Source: Candidatus Ventrimonas merdavium (lineage in GTDB: Bacteria > Bacillota > Clostridia > Lachnospirales > Lachnospiraceae). From it: a DNA stretch of 32,879 nucleotides. Every line of letters begins with the position of its first letter. Within the stretch, counting starts at the first letter, position 1. The translations under genes were made by a program, and so were the position numbers. This document shows positions 25,661 through 31,904 of this stretch, piece by piece. The notes below the pieces were generated by a model that ran no database searches, was not told where the DNA came from, and saw only the letters and a list, made by a program, of their open reading frames with translations. The stretch covers positions 1 through 32,879 of the forward strand of contig DVLJ01000078.1 in NCBI GenBank assembly GCA_018715565.1, read 5' to 3'.

Positions 25661-25753
25661 ATGCGGCGGCCGTGCTGCGGACGGGGCCGCCGCGTGCGGA
25701 AACTATGCGTGGAAATAGTCGCGGAAACAGCCGGCGGAGGTGCGATAAAACGG

Positions 25754-25783
25754 TTGACACAGTCAGAAATGTTATGCTATATT
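25754..25783 (+). promoter_or_regulatory. Strong extended -10 promoter of the polyamine leader RNA
   Basis: A perfect TTGACA (25754-25759), an 18-bp spacer and TATATT (25778-25783) preceded by TGC (extended -10). Transcription should begin near 25790, about 400 nt before the first codon of the decarboxylase gene. Confidence 0.8.
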
Positions 25784-25789
25784 AATTAC

Positions 25790-26155
25790 TAATTGAAAGG
25801 CAAAGATTCTGTCAGAGTTCTTTCAAGCAAACCTTCAGGACCACCCGCTTGCGGGGAATGGCCATACGGACAGCCGGGTCCACTGCCGATCGGCAGCCGA
25901 TGCGCTGCCTTATTGATGGAGTTAAGAGCTCAAATTTTATAAGTTGGTTACTTCATAACCGAAATGCGCACTGGAAGCGCAGACTTGTGAAACGGTCAAT
26001 AAAGAGTGGTAAAAGTGGATTGCTATATAGACTCTGACTTTGGAGAAACGTCTCTGTCCCTATGGGACCGGCGAAGATGCTTACAGACGCCTCACATCGA
26101 AAAAAGACTTATCACACACAGGTCTGCGCACCCCGCGCGCCTGTGTTTTTGTTTT
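25790..26155 (+). ncRNA. Structured leader RNA of the polyamine operon, candidate riboswitch/attenuator
   Basis: The 529-bp gap before the decarboxylase gene holds a promoter, this roughly 360-nt RNA and a terminator, with no plausible protein. The core is closed by 25811-25818 (GTCAGAGT) with 26031-26038, plus 25801-25804 with 26039-26042. Inside are 25826-25830/26020-26024, CCCG-CUUG-CGGG, GGACC/GGTCC (25838-25842/25877-25881), CTGCC-GATC-GGCAG (25883-25896), GGTTA-CTTCA-TAACC (25946-25960) and TGCGC-N7-GCGCA (25965-25981). A further hairpin is at 26049-26089. Segment 25977-25989 is complementary over 13 nt (one G-U) to the 5' arm of the terminator, so it could act as an antiterminator. I do not recognise the family; raiA-type and other Rfam RNAs should be tested. 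Confidence 0.7.
26116..26155 (+). terminator. Intrinsic terminator before the decarboxylase gene
   Basis: ACACAGG (26116-26122) pairs with CCTGTGT (26140-26146). The inner GCGC/GCGC pairing lies beyond a 2-base bulge. The hairpin is followed by TTTTTGTTTT. It ends about 35 bp before the start codon, so the leader either terminates here or reads through into the operon. Confidence 0.85.
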
Positions 26156-26189
26156 ATAAGAAATCTGATACAGCTAAGAGGAGTCGGTG

Positions 26190-27647
26190 ATGAACAAGAA
26201 GATGGCATTAAACCAGGAGCGCGCCCCGATCTATGAGGCGCTGGAACGTTTCCGCCAGATGCGGGTCGTGCCCTTTGATGTGCCGGGGCATAAGCATGGA
26301 AGGGGGAATCCGGAGCTGACGGCATTTTTGGGGCAGCAGTGCGTTGGCGTGGACGTCAACAGCATGAAGCCGCTGGATAATCTGTGCCACCCGGTCTCCG
26401 TGATCCGGGAGGCCGAGGAGCTGGCGGCGGACGCCTTCGGGGCAGCCCATGCCTTCCTGATGGTAGGCGGGACCACCAGCTCCGTCCAGAGCATGGTCTT
26501 AAGCGCCTGCAAGCGGGGAGACGAGATCATCCTTCCCCGGAACGTGCACCGCAGCGTGATCAACGCCCTGGTGCTCTGCGGCGCGGTGCCGGTGTATGTG
26601 AACCCGGAGGTGGACCAGAAGCTGGGGATCTCCCTGGGCATGCGCCGGGAGCAGGTGCAGAAGGCGATCAACGAGCATCCCAACGCCGTGGCGGTCCTGG
26701 TCAACAATCCCACCTATTACGGGATCTGCTCCGACCTGCGGGCGATCGTGAAGATGGCCCACAAGGCGGGGATGATGTGCCTGGTAGACGAGGCCCACGG
26801 CACCCACTTTTATTTCAGCGGGAGCCTTCCCGTTTCCGCCATGGAAGCAGGGGCGGATATGGCCGCGGTGTCCATGCACAAGAGCGGCGGCAGCCTGACC
26901 CAGTCCAGCCTGCTCCTGATCGGACCGGATGTCCACGCCGGATATGTGCGGCAGATCATCAACCTGACCCAGACGACCTCGGGAAGCTATCTTCTGATGT
27001 CCAGCCTGGATATCAGCCGCCGGAACCTGGCCCTGCGAGGGCGGCAGGTGTTCAGCCGGGTGGAGGACATGGCCGAGTATGCCAGAGAGGAGGTCAATGC
27101 CATCGGCGGCTATTACGCCTTTGGCAAGGAGCTGCGGGACGGCAACGCGGTCTTTGACTTTGATACCACCAAGCTGAGCATCCATACCCTGGATATCGGC
27201 CTGGCCGGCATCGAGGTCTATGACATCCTGCGGGACCGCTACGATATCCAGATCGAGTTCGGAGATATCGGCAACATCCTGGCGTATCTTTCCATCGGCG
27301 ACCGCATCCAGGAGGTGGAGCGGCTGGTCAGCGCCCTGGCGGAGATCCGCCGCCGGTGCCAGAAGGACAGCACCGGACTGCTGACCCAGGAATATATCGA
27401 GCCGGATGTAGTCACCAGTCCCCAGGAGGCATTCTACGCGGATAAAGTCAGCCTGCCTCTGGAGGAGTCGGAGGGCTATATCTGCAGTGAGTTTGTGATG
27501 TGTTATCCCCCCGGCATCCCGATCCTGGCCCCAGGAGAGCGGATCACCCGAGAGGTACTGGATTATATTACCTATGCGAAGAGCAAGGGCTGCAGCATGA
27601 CCGGTCCGGAGGACCCGGAGATCCTGCGCCTGAACGTGTTAAAATAA
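26190..27647 (+). CDS. speA: PLP-dependent arginine (Orn/Lys/Arg) decarboxylase
   Basis: A protein of 485 residues from the ATG at 26190, 6 bases after AGAGGAG (a GTG stands directly before it). It is a fold-type I decarboxylase of the Bacillus SpeA type. VPGHKHGRG is at the N terminus, DEAHGTHF supplies the Asp for the cofactor ring nitrogen, and SMHKSGGSLTQ has Lys231 as the PLP Schiff-base lysine. The family includes arginine, lysine and ornithine decarboxylases of about 490 residues. Arginine is chosen because an agmatinase gene follows two genes on: arginine to agmatine to putrescine. It is the first gene of the polyamine operon, and its expression is probably set by the structured leader and terminator just upstream. 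Confidence 0.85.
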   Translation: MNKKMALNQERAPIYEALERFRQMRVVPFDVPGHKHGRGNPELTAFLGQQCVGVDVNSMKPLDNLCHPVSVIREAEELAADAFGAAHAFLMVGGTTSSVQSMVLSACKRGDEIILPRNVHRSVINALVLCGAVPVYVNPEVDQKLGISLGMRREQVQKAINEHPNAVAVLVNNPTYYGICSDLRAIVKMAHKAGMMCLVDEAHGTHFYFSGSLPVSAMEAGADMAAVSMHKSGGSLTQSSLLLIGPDVHAGYVRQIINLTQTTSGSYLLMSSLDISRRNLALRGRQVFSRVEDMAEYAREEVNAIGGYYAFGKELRDGNAVFDFDTTKLSIHTLDIGLAGIEVYDILRDRYDIQIEFGDIGNILAYLSIGDRIQEVERLVSALAEIRRRCQKDSTGLLTQEYIEPDVVTSPQEAFYADKVSLPLEESEGYICSEFVMCYPPGIPILAPGERITREVLDYITYAKSKGCSMTGPEDPEILRLNVLK

Positions 27648-27659
27648 GGAGGCGGAGCC

Positions 27660-28511
27660 ATGGAATTTTGGTTCAGTGAGCTGCATACGCCGGATGTAAA
27701 GCACAGCATCCGGGTGAACAAGCATCTGTACTCCGTACAGAGCGATTATCAGCGGATCGACATTTTTGAGACCCCGGAATTCGGCCGGGTCCTGGCATTG
27801 GACGGCAATGTCATGCTGACGGAACGGGACGAGTTTATTTACGATGAGATGATCACCCACGTGCCCATGGCCGTGCATCCCGGCATCAAGGACGTGCTGG
27901 TGATCGGCGCGGGCGACGGGGGCGTAGTGCGGGAGCTGACCCGCTACGAGACCATCGAGCGGATCGACCTGGTAGAGATGGATCCCATGGTGGTGGAAGC
28001 CTGCCGGGCCTATCTGCCCAGCAACGCCTGCCGTCTGGATGACCGGAGGGTGCATATCACCCTGGGAAATGCGTTAAAATATATCCGCCGCAGTGAGAAT
28101 AAATACGACCTGATCATCGTGGATTCTACGGATCCCTTCGGCCCCTCGGAGGGGTTGTTCACCCTGGAATTCTACGGCAACTGCTACAACGCCCTGCGCG
28201 CCGACGGCATCATGGTGAACCAGCAGGGAAGCCCGTTCTACAAGGAAGACGCCCGGGCCATGCAGCGGAGCCATAAGCGGATCGCCAGCACCTTCCCCAT
28301 CAGCCGGGTATACCAGGCCCACATCCCAACCTATGCGGCGGGCTACTGGCTGTTCGGGTTTGCCAGCAAAAAGTATCATCCTGTGGATGATCTGGATACC
28401 CAGGCATGGCTGGCCCTGAACCTGCGGACCCGGTATTATACTACCAGGCTGCATCTGGGGGCCTTCTGCCTGCCGGCATTCCTGGAAGAGATGCTAAGGG
28501 AGGTGGAGTGA
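27660..28511 (+). CDS. speE: Spermidine synthase-type aminopropyltransferase
   Basis: A protein of 283 residues with AAGGAGG before the ATG, 12 bp after the decarboxylase stop. The features are those of SpeE: the N-terminal beta domain ending in DGNVMLTERDEFIY, the nucleotide-binding GAGDGG (VLVIGAGDGGVVREL), the acidic LVEMDP, and the catalytic-region DSTDPFGPSEGLF. SpeE moves an aminopropyl group from decarboxylated SAM to putrescine. No SAM decarboxylase (speD) gene is in the window although the operon also carries a complete carboxyspermidine route, so the true donor or acceptor of this copy is open. It overlaps the agmatinase start by one base (TGATG). Confidence 0.85.
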   Translation: MEFWFSELHTPDVKHSIRVNKHLYSVQSDYQRIDIFETPEFGRVLALDGNVMLTERDEFIYDEMITHVPMAVHPGIKDVLVIGAGDGGVVRELTRYETIERIDLVEMDPMVVEACRAYLPSNACRLDDRRVHITLGNALKYIRRSENKYDLIIVDSTDPFGPSEGLFTLEFYGNCYNALRADGIMVNQQGSPFYKEDARAMQRSHKRIASTFPISRVYQAHIPTYAAGYWLFGFASKKYHPVDDLDTQAWLALNLRTRYYTTRLHLGAFCLPAFLEEMLREVE

Positions 28512-29374
28512 TGCTAGCGCCCAATGTGGAGACCTTCATCGGCTGTGACGCGCCCTATGAGGAAGCTGGGATCGTCCTTTTCGGAGCGCCCTTTGACTCT
28601 ACCACCAGCTTCCGGCCCGGAGCCCGGTTCGGCTCTGCGGCCATGCGCCATGAGAGCTTCGGCCTGGAGACCTACAGCCCGTATCAGGACCGGGATCTGG
28701 AAGACTGCGCCGTATTTGACAGCGGGGACCTGGAGCTTTGCTTTGGTTCCTCAGAGCAGGCCCTGGCGGATATCGAGGAGCGGGCGGAGCAGATCCTGTC
28801 TGACGGAAAGCTGCCCCTGCTGATCGGCGGCGAGCATCTGGTGACCCTGGGGGCGTTTCGGGCCGTGCAGAAGCGGTTCCCGGATGTGGAGATCATCCAT
28901 TTTGACGCCCATGCGGATCTGCGCCAGGATTATCTGGGAGCGGAGTTAAGCCACGCCTGCGTGATCCGCCGCTGTCACGAACTGATCGGGGATGGGAAGA
29001 TCCATCAGTTCTGCATCCGCAGCGGATGCAGGGAGGAGTTCCAGTTTGCTAAGGAACACACCAACCTTCATCCCTTCCGGTTCGACGGCCTGGAGGAGAC
29101 CGCGGCAGAGCTGGCCAGGCGGGGGACCCCGGTGTATTTCACCATCGATCTGGACTGCCTGGATCCGTCCGTATTTCCCGGGACCGGGACCCCGGAAGCC
29201 GGCGGCGTGACCTTCCCGGAACTTCTGCGGGCCATGGAACAGGTGGCGGCCTGCAATGTGGTGGGGGCAGATGTGAACGAGCTGGCGCCTATGCTGGACG
29301 CCTCCGGCGTATCCACAGCCACGGCCTGCAAGGTACTGCGGGAGCTTTTGTTAGCCCTTTCCGCGAAACGATAA
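28511..29374 (+). CDS. speB: Agmatinase (ureohydrolase)
   Basis: A protein of 287 residues starting at the ATG that overlaps the speE stop, behind GGAGGTGG. It is an arginase/agmatinase family member with the binuclear manganese ligands in their usual places: GGEHLVT, FDAHADLRQDY, and DLDCLDPS followed by the SerGly-type turn (GTGTPEAGG). It would hydrolyse agmatine to putrescine and urea, the step after arginine decarboxylase. Its place between the aminopropyltransferase and the carboxyspermidine genes fits putrescine supply. Agmatinase is preferred over arginase because of the gene context; related acceptors such as an aminopropyl-agmatine intermediate cannot be excluded. Confidence 0.85.
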   Translation: MLAPNVETFIGCDAPYEEAGIVLFGAPFDSTTSFRPGARFGSAAMRHESFGLETYSPYQDRDLEDCAVFDSGDLELCFGSSEQALADIEERAEQILSDGKLPLLIGGEHLVTLGAFRAVQKRFPDVEIIHFDAHADLRQDYLGAELSHACVIRRCHELIGDGKIHQFCIRSGCREEFQFAKEHTNLHPFRFDGLEETAAELARRGTPVYFTIDLDCLDPSVFPGTGTPEAGGVTFPELLRAMEQVAACNVVGADVNELAPMLDASGVSTATACKVLRELLLALSAKR

Positions 29375-29436: not shown

Positions 29437-30696
29437 ATGAGCAGAGTATTAGTGATCGGATGCGGCGGCGTAGCCTCCGTCGCGGTGCACAAGTGCTGTC
29501 AGGTCAGCGAGGTATTTACGGAGCTGTGCATTGCCAGCCGCACCAAATCCAAATGTGACAAGCTGGCCGCCGAGCTGGCGGGCAAGACCTCCACGAAGAT
29601 CACCACGGCCCAGGTGGATGCGGACGATGTGGAGCAGGTTGTGGCGCTGATCAACGATTACAAGCCGGACCTGGTGATGAACATTGCCCTTCCTTATCAG
29701 GATCTGACTATCATGGAAGCCTGCTTACAGTGCGGCGTGAACTACATGGACACCGCCAACTATGAGCCGGAGAACACGGACGACCCGGAGTGGAGGGCCA
29801 TCTATGACAAACGGTGCAAGGAAGCCGGTTTTTCCGCCTACTTTGACTATTCCTGGCAGTGGGCGTACCGGAAGCGCTTTGAGGAAGCGGGGCTGACGGC
29901 CCTCTTAGGCTGCGGATTTGACCCGGGGGTGACCCAGGCGTACTGCGCCTATGCGGCCAAGCACGAGTTTGACACCATCGACACCATCGATATCTTAGAC
30001 TGCAACGGCGGCGATCACGGCTACCCCTTCGCCACCAACTTTAACCCGGAGGTGAACCTGCGGGAGGTTTCCGCGCCGGGAAGCTACTGGGAGGACGGTC
30101 ACTGGATCGAGATCCCGGCCATGTCCATCAAGCGGGAGTACAATTTTGACCAGGTAGGACAGAAGGATATGTACCTGCTGCACCATGAGGAGATCGAGTC
30201 CCTGGCGGAGAATATCCCAGGGGTGCGCCGGATCCGGTTCTTCATGACCTTTGGACAGAGCTATCTGGACCACATGCGGTGCCTGGAAAACGTAGGCATG
30301 CTGTCCACCTCTCCGATCCAGTTTGAAGGCCATGAGATCGTGCCGATCCAGTTCTTAAAGGCCCTGCTCCCGGACCCGGCGAGCTTAGGCCCCAGAACGG
30401 TGGGCAAGACCAATATCGGCTGTATTTTCACCGGAAAGAAGGACGGAAAAGACAAGACCTACTATATCTATAACATCTGCGACCATCAGGAGTGCTACCG
30501 GGAGGTGGGCTCCCAGGCAGTCAGCTACACCACCGGCGTTCCGGCGATGTGCGGCGCCCTGATGCTGCTGACGGGAAAATGGACGGACAAGGGCGTTCAC
30601 ACGGTAGAGGAGTTTGATCCGGATCCGTTCCTGGAGGCATTGGACAAGTACGGCCTGCCGCGCAGCGAATCCCATGATCCGGTGCTGGTAGAGTGA
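29437..30696 (+). CDS. Carboxyspermidine/carboxynorspermidine dehydrogenase
   Basis: A protein of 419 residues of the saccharopine dehydrogenase family: an N-terminal Rossmann fold (RVLVIGCGGVASVAVHKC), then CGVNYMDTANYE and LLGCGFDPGVTQAYCAYA, typical for CASDH/CANSDH. The enzyme condenses aspartate semialdehyde with putrescine (or diaminopropane) and reduces the imine with NADPH to carboxyspermidine (or carboxynorspermidine). An AAAGGAG ribosome binding site precedes the ATG. In the 62-bp gap before it, the bases around the start (GAACGAACATGAGC) occur a second time with GTG, an apparent small duplication. The stop overlaps the start of the decarboxylase gene by one base. Confidence 0.88.
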   Translation: MSRVLVIGCGGVASVAVHKCCQVSEVFTELCIASRTKSKCDKLAAELAGKTSTKITTAQVDADDVEQVVALINDYKPDLVMNIALPYQDLTIMEACLQCGVNYMDTANYEPENTDDPEWRAIYDKRCKEAGFSAYFDYSWQWAYRKRFEEAGLTALLGCGFDPGVTQAYCAYAAKHEFDTIDTIDILDCNGGDHGYPFATNFNPEVNLREVSAPGSYWEDGHWIEIPAMSIKREYNFDQVGQKDMYLLHHEEIESLAENIPGVRRIRFFMTFGQSYLDHMRCLENVGMLSTSPIQFEGHEIVPIQFLKALLPDPASLGPRTVGKTNIGCIFTGKKDGKDKTYYIYNICDHQECYREVGSQAVSYTTGVPAMCGALMLLTGKWTDKGVHTVEEFDPDPFLEALDKYGLPRSESHDPVLVE

Positions 30697-31904
30697 TGGG
30701 GGGCGGAGAGAACCGCCCGCCCTTTCAGCCGCTGAAGGGACGGGACTGGCAGGAATGGTTCCAGGAGCTGCCCACGCCCAGCTACATCCTGGACGAGGGA
30801 AAGCTGCGGGCCAATGGGCAGGTTTTAAAGGCTCTCCAGGAGCGGACAGGCTGCAAGGTGCTCCTGGCGCAGAAAGCATTTTCCAACTTTGATCTGTATG
30901 GAACGCTGGCTCCGTATCTGGCCGGTACGGAGGCCAGTGGCCTTTACGAGGCGCGCCTAGGCCGGGAGGAGATGCCGGACCGGGAGGTGCATGTGTTCTG
31001 CGGCGCTTACCGGCAGCAGGATTTTGGAGAGCTTCTGAAATATGCGGACCACATTGTGTTCAACTCTCCCCGTCAGCTGGCCCAGTTCGGTCCTGCGGCC
31101 AAGGCGGCGGGAAAGAGCGTGGGCCTGCGGATCAATCCGGAGCGTTCCACCCAGGAAGGCCACGCGATCTACGATCCCTGCGCCCCTGGCAGCAGGCTTG
31201 GGACTACCAGGGCCCAGTGGGACGCGGCGATGACGCCGGAGCTTACCGGGCTTCTGGATGGACTGCATTTCCACACCTTATGCGAGCAGGATTCCGACGC
31301 TCTGGAGGTGACCTTGGGGGCAGTGGCAGACCGGTTCGGAGATGTGCTCCCTGGGATGAAATGGCTGAACTTTGGAGGGGGGCACCACATCACTCGCCCG
31401 GATTATGACCTGGAACGGCTGGAGCGCTGCATCCGCCGGGCGCAGGAGGCATGGGATGTGGAGGTGTATCTGGAGCCGGGAGAGGCGGTGGCCTTAAACG
31501 CAGGCTATTTTTTGACCACAGTGCTGGACGCTTTCCAGAATGGGGAGACTTCCCTGGCGATCTTAGACGCGTCCGCCGCCTGTCATATGCCGGATGTGCT
31601 GGAGATGCCGTACCGTCCGCCGCTTTATGGAGCGGGAGACCCGGGAGAGCGCCCCTTCACAGTCCGGTTAGGCGGTCCGACCTGCCTGGCTGGAGACGTG
31701 GTGGGGGATTACAGCTTTGACCGGCCCCTGGCTGAGGGCGACCGGCTGCTGTTCGGCGACATGGCCATTTACACCACCTGTAAGAACAATACGTTCAACG
31801 GCATGCCGCTGCCGGATATCTGGGTCCTGCGGGAAGATGGGTCCCTGGAAAAGCTGGCCGGCTTTGGATACAAGGATTTCAAATACCGGCTGGGGCAGGG
31901 ATAG
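30696..31904 (+). CDS. nspC: Carboxyspermidine/carboxynorspermidine decarboxylase
   Basis: A protein of 402 residues from the ATG at 30696 in the TGATG junction (a GTG at 30693 is the alternative). It is an alanine-racemase-fold PLP decarboxylase of the NspC/CANSDC type: LLAQKAFSNF with Lys60 as Schiff base, RINPERSTQEGHAIYDP, GLHFHTLCEQDSD, NFGGGHHITRPDYD, YLEPGEAV, and near the end the substrate Asp region FGDMAIYTTCKNNTFNGM. It removes the carboxyl group from carboxyspermidine to yield spermidine. It is the last gene of the operon; no clear terminator is seen in the 114 bp before the next gene, so read-through is possible. Confidence 0.9.
   Translation: MGGGENRPPFQPLKGRDWQEWFQELPTPSYILDEGKLRANGQVLKALQERTGCKVLLAQKAFSNFDLYGTLAPYLAGTEASGLYEARLGREEMPDREVHVFCGAYRQQDFGELLKYADHIVFNSPRQLAQFGPAAKAAGKSVGLRINPERSTQEGHAIYDPCAPGSRLGTTRAQWDAAMTPELTGLLDGLHFHTLCEQDSDALEVTLGAVADRFGDVLPGMKWLNFGGGHHITRPDYDLERLERCIRRAQEAWDVEVYLEPGEAVALNAGYFLTTVLDAFQNGETSLAILDASAACHMPDVLEMPYRPPLYGAGDPGERPFTVRLGGPTCLAGDVVGDYSFDRPLAEGDRLLFGDMAIYTTCKNNTFNGMPLPDIWVLREDGSLEKLAGFGYKDFKYRLGQG

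Follow-up and report, generated by a model that had tools for sequence, protein, structure and literature searches.

A conserved leader RNA of polyamine operons in Bacillota as a candidate spermidine riboswitch

A structured leader RNA precedes a polyamine operon of Candidatus Ventrimonas merdavium (contig DVLJ01000078.1; the analysed stretch, positions 1–32,879, is called the window below), and relatives of this RNA occur across Bacillota. We consider it probable that this leader acts in cis as a riboswitch through which polyamines repress the operon by transcription attenuation, with spermidine as the likeliest ligand. Comparison of related loci reveals a conserved fold, an association in cis with polyamine genes, a terminator and a covarying antiterminator, and on these sequence grounds cis-attenuation is well supported. 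From the same arrangement we infer direct binding of a ligand, its identity as spermidine and the direction of switching. An earlier note on this DNA had read the region as an attenuator before polyamine genes, composed of a folded sensor, a terminator and an exclusive antiterminator. Gene association and covariation bear out this reading, and the observation behind it is confirmed as real: the RNA is conserved and covarying, and its antiterminator goes beyond chance.

The leader, its operon and its relatives

All features of the leader and operon described here lie on the + strand. The strong extended -10 promoter reported in the earlier note is found at 25754–25783. It is of the sigma-70 type (TTGACA-18-TATATT, with TG ahead of the -10) and agrees with the consensus at 11 of 12 letters; one pattern of that quality was found, against 0.5 expected in shuffles. 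Downstream, a hairpin that can be read from the sequence (P0, 25793–25826) pairs TTGAAAG (25793–25799) with CTTTCAA (25820–25826) and carries GTCAGAGT in its loop. P0-like segments (TTGGAAAG..CTTTCCAA) are present in a number of relatives, and the longest perfect stem upstream of the core in relatives averages 5.2 bp, compared with 3.8 bp in shuffles. The conserved RNA, a putative aptamer, follows at 25838–26035. It matches our full-length covariance model R1 with 190.4 bits, the window sequence being among the 57 from which R1 was built. The folding energy of the leader was better than that of all 100 dinucleotide shuffles (z -2.6).

The operon begins with a gene for an ornithine/lysine/arginine decarboxylase (26190–27647; PF01276, E 1.9e-68). 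Its reading frame is listed from a GTG at 26187, with an ATG at 26190. None of the 25 NCBIfam families shown reached its cut-off for this protein, and we name its class without a substrate. It is followed by genes for a speE-like polyamine aminopropyltransferase (27660–28511), an agmatinase (speB, 28406–29374; TIGR01230, 285.8 bits, cut-off 174.3) whose start probably lies inside the listed ATG, a carboxy(nor)spermidine synthase-like protein (29437–30696; NF043000, 419.7 bits, below the cut-off of 800) and a carboxy(nor)spermidine decarboxylase (nspC, 30693–31904; TIGR01047, 409.7 bits, just above the cut-off of 409.05). A search of the window's genome (97% complete) gave no match to AdoMet decarboxylase (SpeD), though the operon has an aminopropyltransferase of the speE-like kind that such an enzyme would feed.

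A search with a 20-nt core pattern returned at least 118 loci in named genomes; the use of an exact core as the selection favours conserved members. Among the matches listed, most are Bacillota by title, and one metagenome-assembled genome each is labelled Spirochaetes and Synergistaceae, both of which could be binning errors. R1, which was built without gene information, was run on a sample of 398 genomes of the window's phylum and on 61 relatives; it detected the RNA in 25 and 6 of them, respectively, with one copy per genome. Presence is patchy: within the window's genus, the RNA is carried by 2 of 24 genomes, one of which is the window's own. With R1, 12 loci beyond those of the exact core came to light, 7 of them in genomes lacking a match to the Rfam family RF02440 discussed below.

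In 128 of the 134 oriented loci, the core is followed by a second conserved block, TCAATAAGAGTAGTAAAAG (up to 5 errors allowed), and 113 of these 128 also have the TAGACTCT end. This tail block is absent in 6 loci, three of which are at contig ends. The whole set counts 136 loci and is reduced to 134 by two (L132 and L134) that the core search missed and R1 later matched; the parsed set omits 16 of the 134, and some of the loci are near-duplicates, such as L027 and L126. Two leaders (L011 and L063) have a degenerate 3′ domain, with the tail block missing or altered, and are perhaps decaying copies. In two other loci, the polyamine leader has a c-di-GMP-I riboswitch as a neighbour on the other strand (L139, 2646–2737; L140, 2659–2750).

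The position of the RNA relative to genes is that of a cis-regulator ahead of functionally related genes. When reference proteins were placed by tblastn, the nearest same-strand downstream gene was a polyamine gene in 128 of 134 loci, and the other 6 have at most 450 nt of downstream DNA. The first gene encodes SpeD in 43 loci, an ornithine/lysine/arginine decarboxylase in 41, a carboxy(nor)spermidine synthase in 28 and PotA in 16. Between the core and the start of the hit there are 184 to 657 nt (median 337); this placement looked for reference proteins only, so a small gene could hide in the longest gaps. NCBIfam naming of sample proteins gave an adenosylmethionine decarboxylase, two PotA-type ATPases and a carboxynorspermidine synthase (the last below the model cut-off). 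All 12 loci that were found by the RNA model alone precede a decarboxylase or SpeD gene.

Fold and covariation of the conserved RNA

The conserved RNA runs for about 200 nt from stem P2 to the tail. Stems P2 to P9 were drawn by hand from complementarity, after inspection of the sequences that were then used to count covariation. P2 (25838–25842/25877–25881) delimits 25838–25881 and encloses P3 (25843–25847/25852–25856) together with the highly conserved GGCCATACGGACAGCC loop. Two-sided changes were seen in 4 of 5 pairs of P2 and in 5 of 5 pairs of P3, whose outermost pair is an unpaired A-G in the window. The P4 hairpin (25892–25909, pairing 25892–25897 with 25904–25909) changes on both sides in 6 of 6 pairs. 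P5 (25910–25916/25996–26002) closes the 3′ domain (25910–26002) and is nearly invariant: 5 of its 6 counted pairs change on both sides, in one or two sequences per pair, and by eye these include L076, L160 and L082. Within this domain are the P6 hairpin (25918–25932, pairing 25918–25921 with 25929–25932; 4 of 4 pairs two-sided, outermost pair G-A in the window) and P9 (25939–25945/25982–25988, spanning 25939–25988; 4 of 7 counted pairs). P9 in turn encloses P7 (25946–25950/25956–25960; 5 of 5 counted pairs) and P8 (25966–25969/25977–25980; 2 of 2).

A tree-based null applied to a plain MAFFT alignment gave one pair with E 0 and three more with E below 1, an outcome that we blame on misaligned hairpins. 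After this attempt, structure-anchored and model-based counts were used, which lean towards the drawn structure. In a structure-free MAFFT alignment of 57 sequences, 92.5% of cells are paired and two-sided changes occur in 21 of 43 pairs, compared with 12.9 in shuffles. The model alignment, which took 96 chosen loci (95 distinct sequences), has 94.8% of cells paired and two-sided changes in 35 of 40 pairs. Two-sided cells number 378 there against 97 in shuffles, and none of 500 shuffles did as well. When the partner strand was slid by 1 to 3 columns, pairing dropped to 32–42%. Even P2, nearly invariant in the 57-sequence set, becomes GCCC/GGGC in L163. Thus, the leader has the conserved, covarying, aptamer-like fold expected of a riboswitch.

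Four loci (L156, L159, L161 and L164) lack the 5′ domain, which holds GGCCATACGGACAGCC and the most conserved letters, yet retain the 3′ domain as well as the polyamine gene. Part of the conserved RNA is therefore dispensable and the 3′ domain is its constant part; the 5′ domain may be optional or may be a second sensor.

The earlier note had closed the core with an 8-bp long-range stem, P1, between 25811–25818 (GTCAGAGT) and 26031–26038 (ACTCTGAC). The complementary letters are present, and in relatives P1 turned out to be the least supported element. An upstream GAGT is present in 60 of 106 loci, against 19% expected. The locus's own P1 pairing beat swapped partners (0 of 5000 swaps as good), yet so did a control, the next 10 nt downstream, which makes this swap test unspecific. 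P1 also competes for the same ACTC with a tail hairpin, P10/P11 (26004–26034; GAGT-GGTAA...TTGCT-ATATAG-ACTC), that is conserved in relatives. In its 9-bp form (GAGT-AGTAA/TTGCT-ACTC), all nine pairs are made in 77 of 96 loci, compared with 1.5% of shuffled tails, and GAGT/ACTC becomes GAGC/GCTC in L076 and L160. As the tail is highly conserved, the support for the hairpin comes from conservation more than from covariation. On comparative evidence, P2, P5 and P9 are better supported than P1. The GAGT strands of 25811–25818 and 26004–26034 can both pair with the one ACTC, a possible second switch within the aptamer.

Terminator and antiterminator

The terminator that the earlier note had placed before the decarboxylase gene is found at 26116–26155, with a hairpin at 26116–26146 and a T-rich run to about 26155; from there, the distance to the ATG at 26190 is roughly 35 nt. 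Among relatives, 83 of 125 loci have a strict terminator in the stretch from the RNA to the gene, compared with 1 of 125 stretches after mononucleotide shuffling. These 125 are the 134 loci minus six without a downstream hit and minus L072, L077 and L082, which have no ACTTGTG anchor. The remaining 42 loci have no strict terminator. Among them is a SpeD-linked subgroup (L041, L060, L070 and L106), of which L041 and L106 also lack P7 and P8; in L041, a CAAGTT ahead of the ribosome site could pair with AACTTG, possibly for translational control.

The 13-nt segment 25977–25989 (GCGCAGACTTGTG) had been described as complementary to the 5′ arm of the terminator (26117–26129), and it is so with zero mismatches and one G-U. 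At -25.6 kcal/mol, this putative antiterminator is the best of 75 loci, a set made up of the 83 terminators minus six scoring below 22 and two duplicates. Across these 75 distinct loci, the aptamer strand ...ACTTGTGAAA pairs with the terminator 5′ arm, with a mean energy of -15.97 kcal/mol for own partners, -13.07 for partners swapped between loci and -8.32 for a shuffled strand. None of 10,000 permutations was as good, either overall or within gene class (swapped mean -13.89). Permutations leave the relatedness of loci in, an effect that within-class swapping reduces. In 62 of the 75 loci, the own pairing surpassed the mean swap. Concerted changes are visible too: CTTGTAA goes with TTACAGG in L043, and TCTG with CAG in L028 and L039. 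The covariation that the earlier note had named as a check on its antiterminator is thus supported.

The 12 held-out loci add thin support. A strict terminator was found in 6 of them, where the mean was -13.7 kcal/mol for own pairing versus -12.2 and -10.9 for the two kinds of swap, and the own pairing beat both in 4 of 6. Among the remaining 6, a candidate hairpin is missing in one, and in five a weak hairpin shows poor pairing with the aptamer strand (-2.6 to -6.4 kcal/mol); by our finder, none of these 6 has a working platform. Loci of this kind may use translational control or have imperfect terminators.

Because the 3′ sides of P8 and P9 double as the 5′ strand of the antiterminator, the folded core and the antiterminator are mutually exclusive. 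Such an exclusive expression platform, a further property of riboswitches, is found in the window and in the 75 loci, with the strict terminator absent in 42 of 125 loci and 6 of 12 held-out ones.

A terminator and an antiterminator ahead of biosynthetic genes would also be expected if a translating ribosome read a leader peptide. There is a slight excess of open frames of at least 30 codons (67 of 96 loci versus 51 of 96 in shuffles), 11 of them with a ribosome-site-like motif versus 7 in shuffles. The spacing between conserved blocks is spread evenly over the three phases (20, 23 and 24 of 67), and no conserved reading frame was found between the blocks. We thus rejected the leader peptide, and ribosome-mediated attenuation is to be regarded as extremely improbable.

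Known RNAs and the candidate ligand

An Rfam scan, proposed by the earlier note, matched 25838–25889 to RF02440 (SpF59 sRNA / ldcC RNA; E 4.6e-9) with 62.2 bits, well above the gathering cut-off of 37.2. This makes the leader the same RNA as the RF02440 family. The Rfam model, classed as an sRNA gene, spans 54 of the roughly 200 conserved positions and seems to represent a fragment of the larger conserved RNA. The family had gone unrecognised in the earlier note, which holds for the bulk of the roughly 200 nt, uncatalogued, and fails for the 54-nt piece. In the 398 phylum genomes, RF02440 was found in 18 and R1 in 25, and none of 8 divergent loci reached the RF02440 gathering score. The words 'ldcC RNA' in the Rfam title imply that someone had already noticed a link to ldcC.

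Across the 4227 families scanned, which we take to have included the raiA model, neither raiA nor a known riboswitch matched the leader at E 5; besides RF02440, just one chance-level snoRNA match came up. On this basis, raiA and T-box were rejected, as was the SAM-I/spermidine riboswitch, given that no SAM family matched 25700–26200 at E 5. The main alternative put forward in the earlier note, a stand-alone RNA such as raiA, does not hold up: in all 128 loci with enough DNA, the RNA is on the coding strand before polyamine genes, which disfavours a free-standing RNA. The raiA motif RNA (ModT) is likewise a structured RNA conserved in Bacillota, but according to PMC11477304 it acts in trans and is often hundreds of nucleotides from the next gene, or sometimes opposite to it.

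We assume, by the Rfam name alone, that RF02440 is pneumococcal F59. Published sources give this RNA (also srn235, SN20 or Spd_sr49) as 82 nt long in one study and 327 nt by coordinates in another, and place it between SP0915 and SP0916; SP_0916, the gene downstream of it, is the arginine decarboxylase gene speA.

It could be argued that the RNA is a trans-acting small RNA that happens to be transcribed ahead of the operon. Rfam labels it 'sRNA', pneumococcal sRNA lists include F59/srn235/SN20, and a review table of virulence-tied sRNAs enters it under 'Lung'. A terminated leader would itself register as a small RNA, though, and the RNA covaries with the terminator and precedes polyamine genes on the same strand in 128 of 134 loci and in all 12 new ones. 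A trans-acting role is therefore very improbable. In the open-access literature, to which the search was limited, we found no description of this RNA as a cis-regulator or riboswitch; a prior description may exist elsewhere.

If the leader is a polyamine-repressed riboswitch, as we prefer to read it, the RNA would fold P2–P11 in the presence of ligand. The folded state would hold the 3′ strands of P8 and P9 (...ACTTGTG) and let the terminator form, which would halt transcription ahead of the decarboxylase gene. With no ligand, the freed ACTTGTG strand would pair with the terminator 5′ arm and the operon would be transcribed. Such an arrangement would be an OFF switch.

The gene association, the antiterminator and the covarying fold would fit equally well an attenuator read by an RNA-binding protein that stabilises the fold at high polyamines, and such a protein could make contact with the long, highly conserved stretches that are unpaired. 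Simple protein-binding leaders are smaller and less ornate than an RNA of about 200 conserved nucleotides with many invariant unpaired letters, and the window's operon, to which the search was limited, contains no conspicuous regulator gene. We judge the protein-read version to be distinctly unlikely.

As for the ligand of the proposed riboswitch, SpeD and the carboxy-polyamine enzymes reach spermidine by different routes, the decarboxylase feeds both, and PotA imports spermidine. Spermidine is thus the one end product common to all four kinds of first gene, which are otherwise unrelated, and this makes it the likeliest ligand. Another signal is conceivable but unlikely: agmatine, putrescine, cadaverine, a carboxy-polyamine, SAM, or polyamine charge and Mg2+ jointly. 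Judging by gene matches and pathway knowledge, agmatine and putrescine would be made by the same operon. In the known pathways, putrescine is consumed rather than made by the synthase and decarboxylase that head the Bacillus and Paenibacillus loci, SpeD makes decarboxylated SAM, and spermidine lies downstream of all four gene classes. The window's genome gave no match to SpeD, which makes it improbable that its RNA responds to the products of that enzyme.

Pneumococcus has lower polyamine levels when its importer (potABCD) is lost; PMC8540371 reports a 16.9-fold rise of speA and a 14.4-fold rise of speE in such a mutant by qRT-PCR, with neither gene differentially expressed by RNA-seq. This fits polyamine repression and weakly supports it.

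Polyamine-sensing riboswitches have long been claimed and long doubted. As described in PMC10853860, a class reported in 2023, a spermidine-binding variant of SAM-I, is also found before ldcC, speE and speB genes and turns them off by intrinsic termination with a competing antiterminator, like the mechanism proposed here. That variant has the four-stem SAM-I fold, whereas our leader has no SAM-I match at E 5, and it is rare according to its authors, whereas the leader RNA is present in 25 of 398 sampled phylum genomes. The same authors have no doubt that further polyamine classes are still to be discovered. Descriptions of the speF, potE and odc1 motifs, also candidate RNA elements ahead of polyamine genes, assign speF and odc1 to alphaproteobacteria and potE to Veillonella; they are set apart from the leader RNA by the Rfam scan only.

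The leader RNA is a strong candidate for a further, apparently much commoner, class of polyamine riboswitch. With modest confidence, we lean towards a broader view in which a widespread, uncharacterised class of spermidine riboswitches, with an aptamer of about 200 nt unrelated to SAM-I, controls polyamine synthesis and import across Bacillota and is hidden in Rfam behind a 54-nt 'sRNA' family, pneumococcal F59/srn235 being its terminated leader. The leader RNA offers a structurally complex polyamine-riboswitch candidate with a ready expression platform, and it looks far commoner than the SAM-I variant. If the broader view is true, an 'sRNA' would be recast as a cis-regulator, and the RNA would explain polyamine feedback in many Bacillota and possibly the rise of pneumococcal speA upon loss of import.
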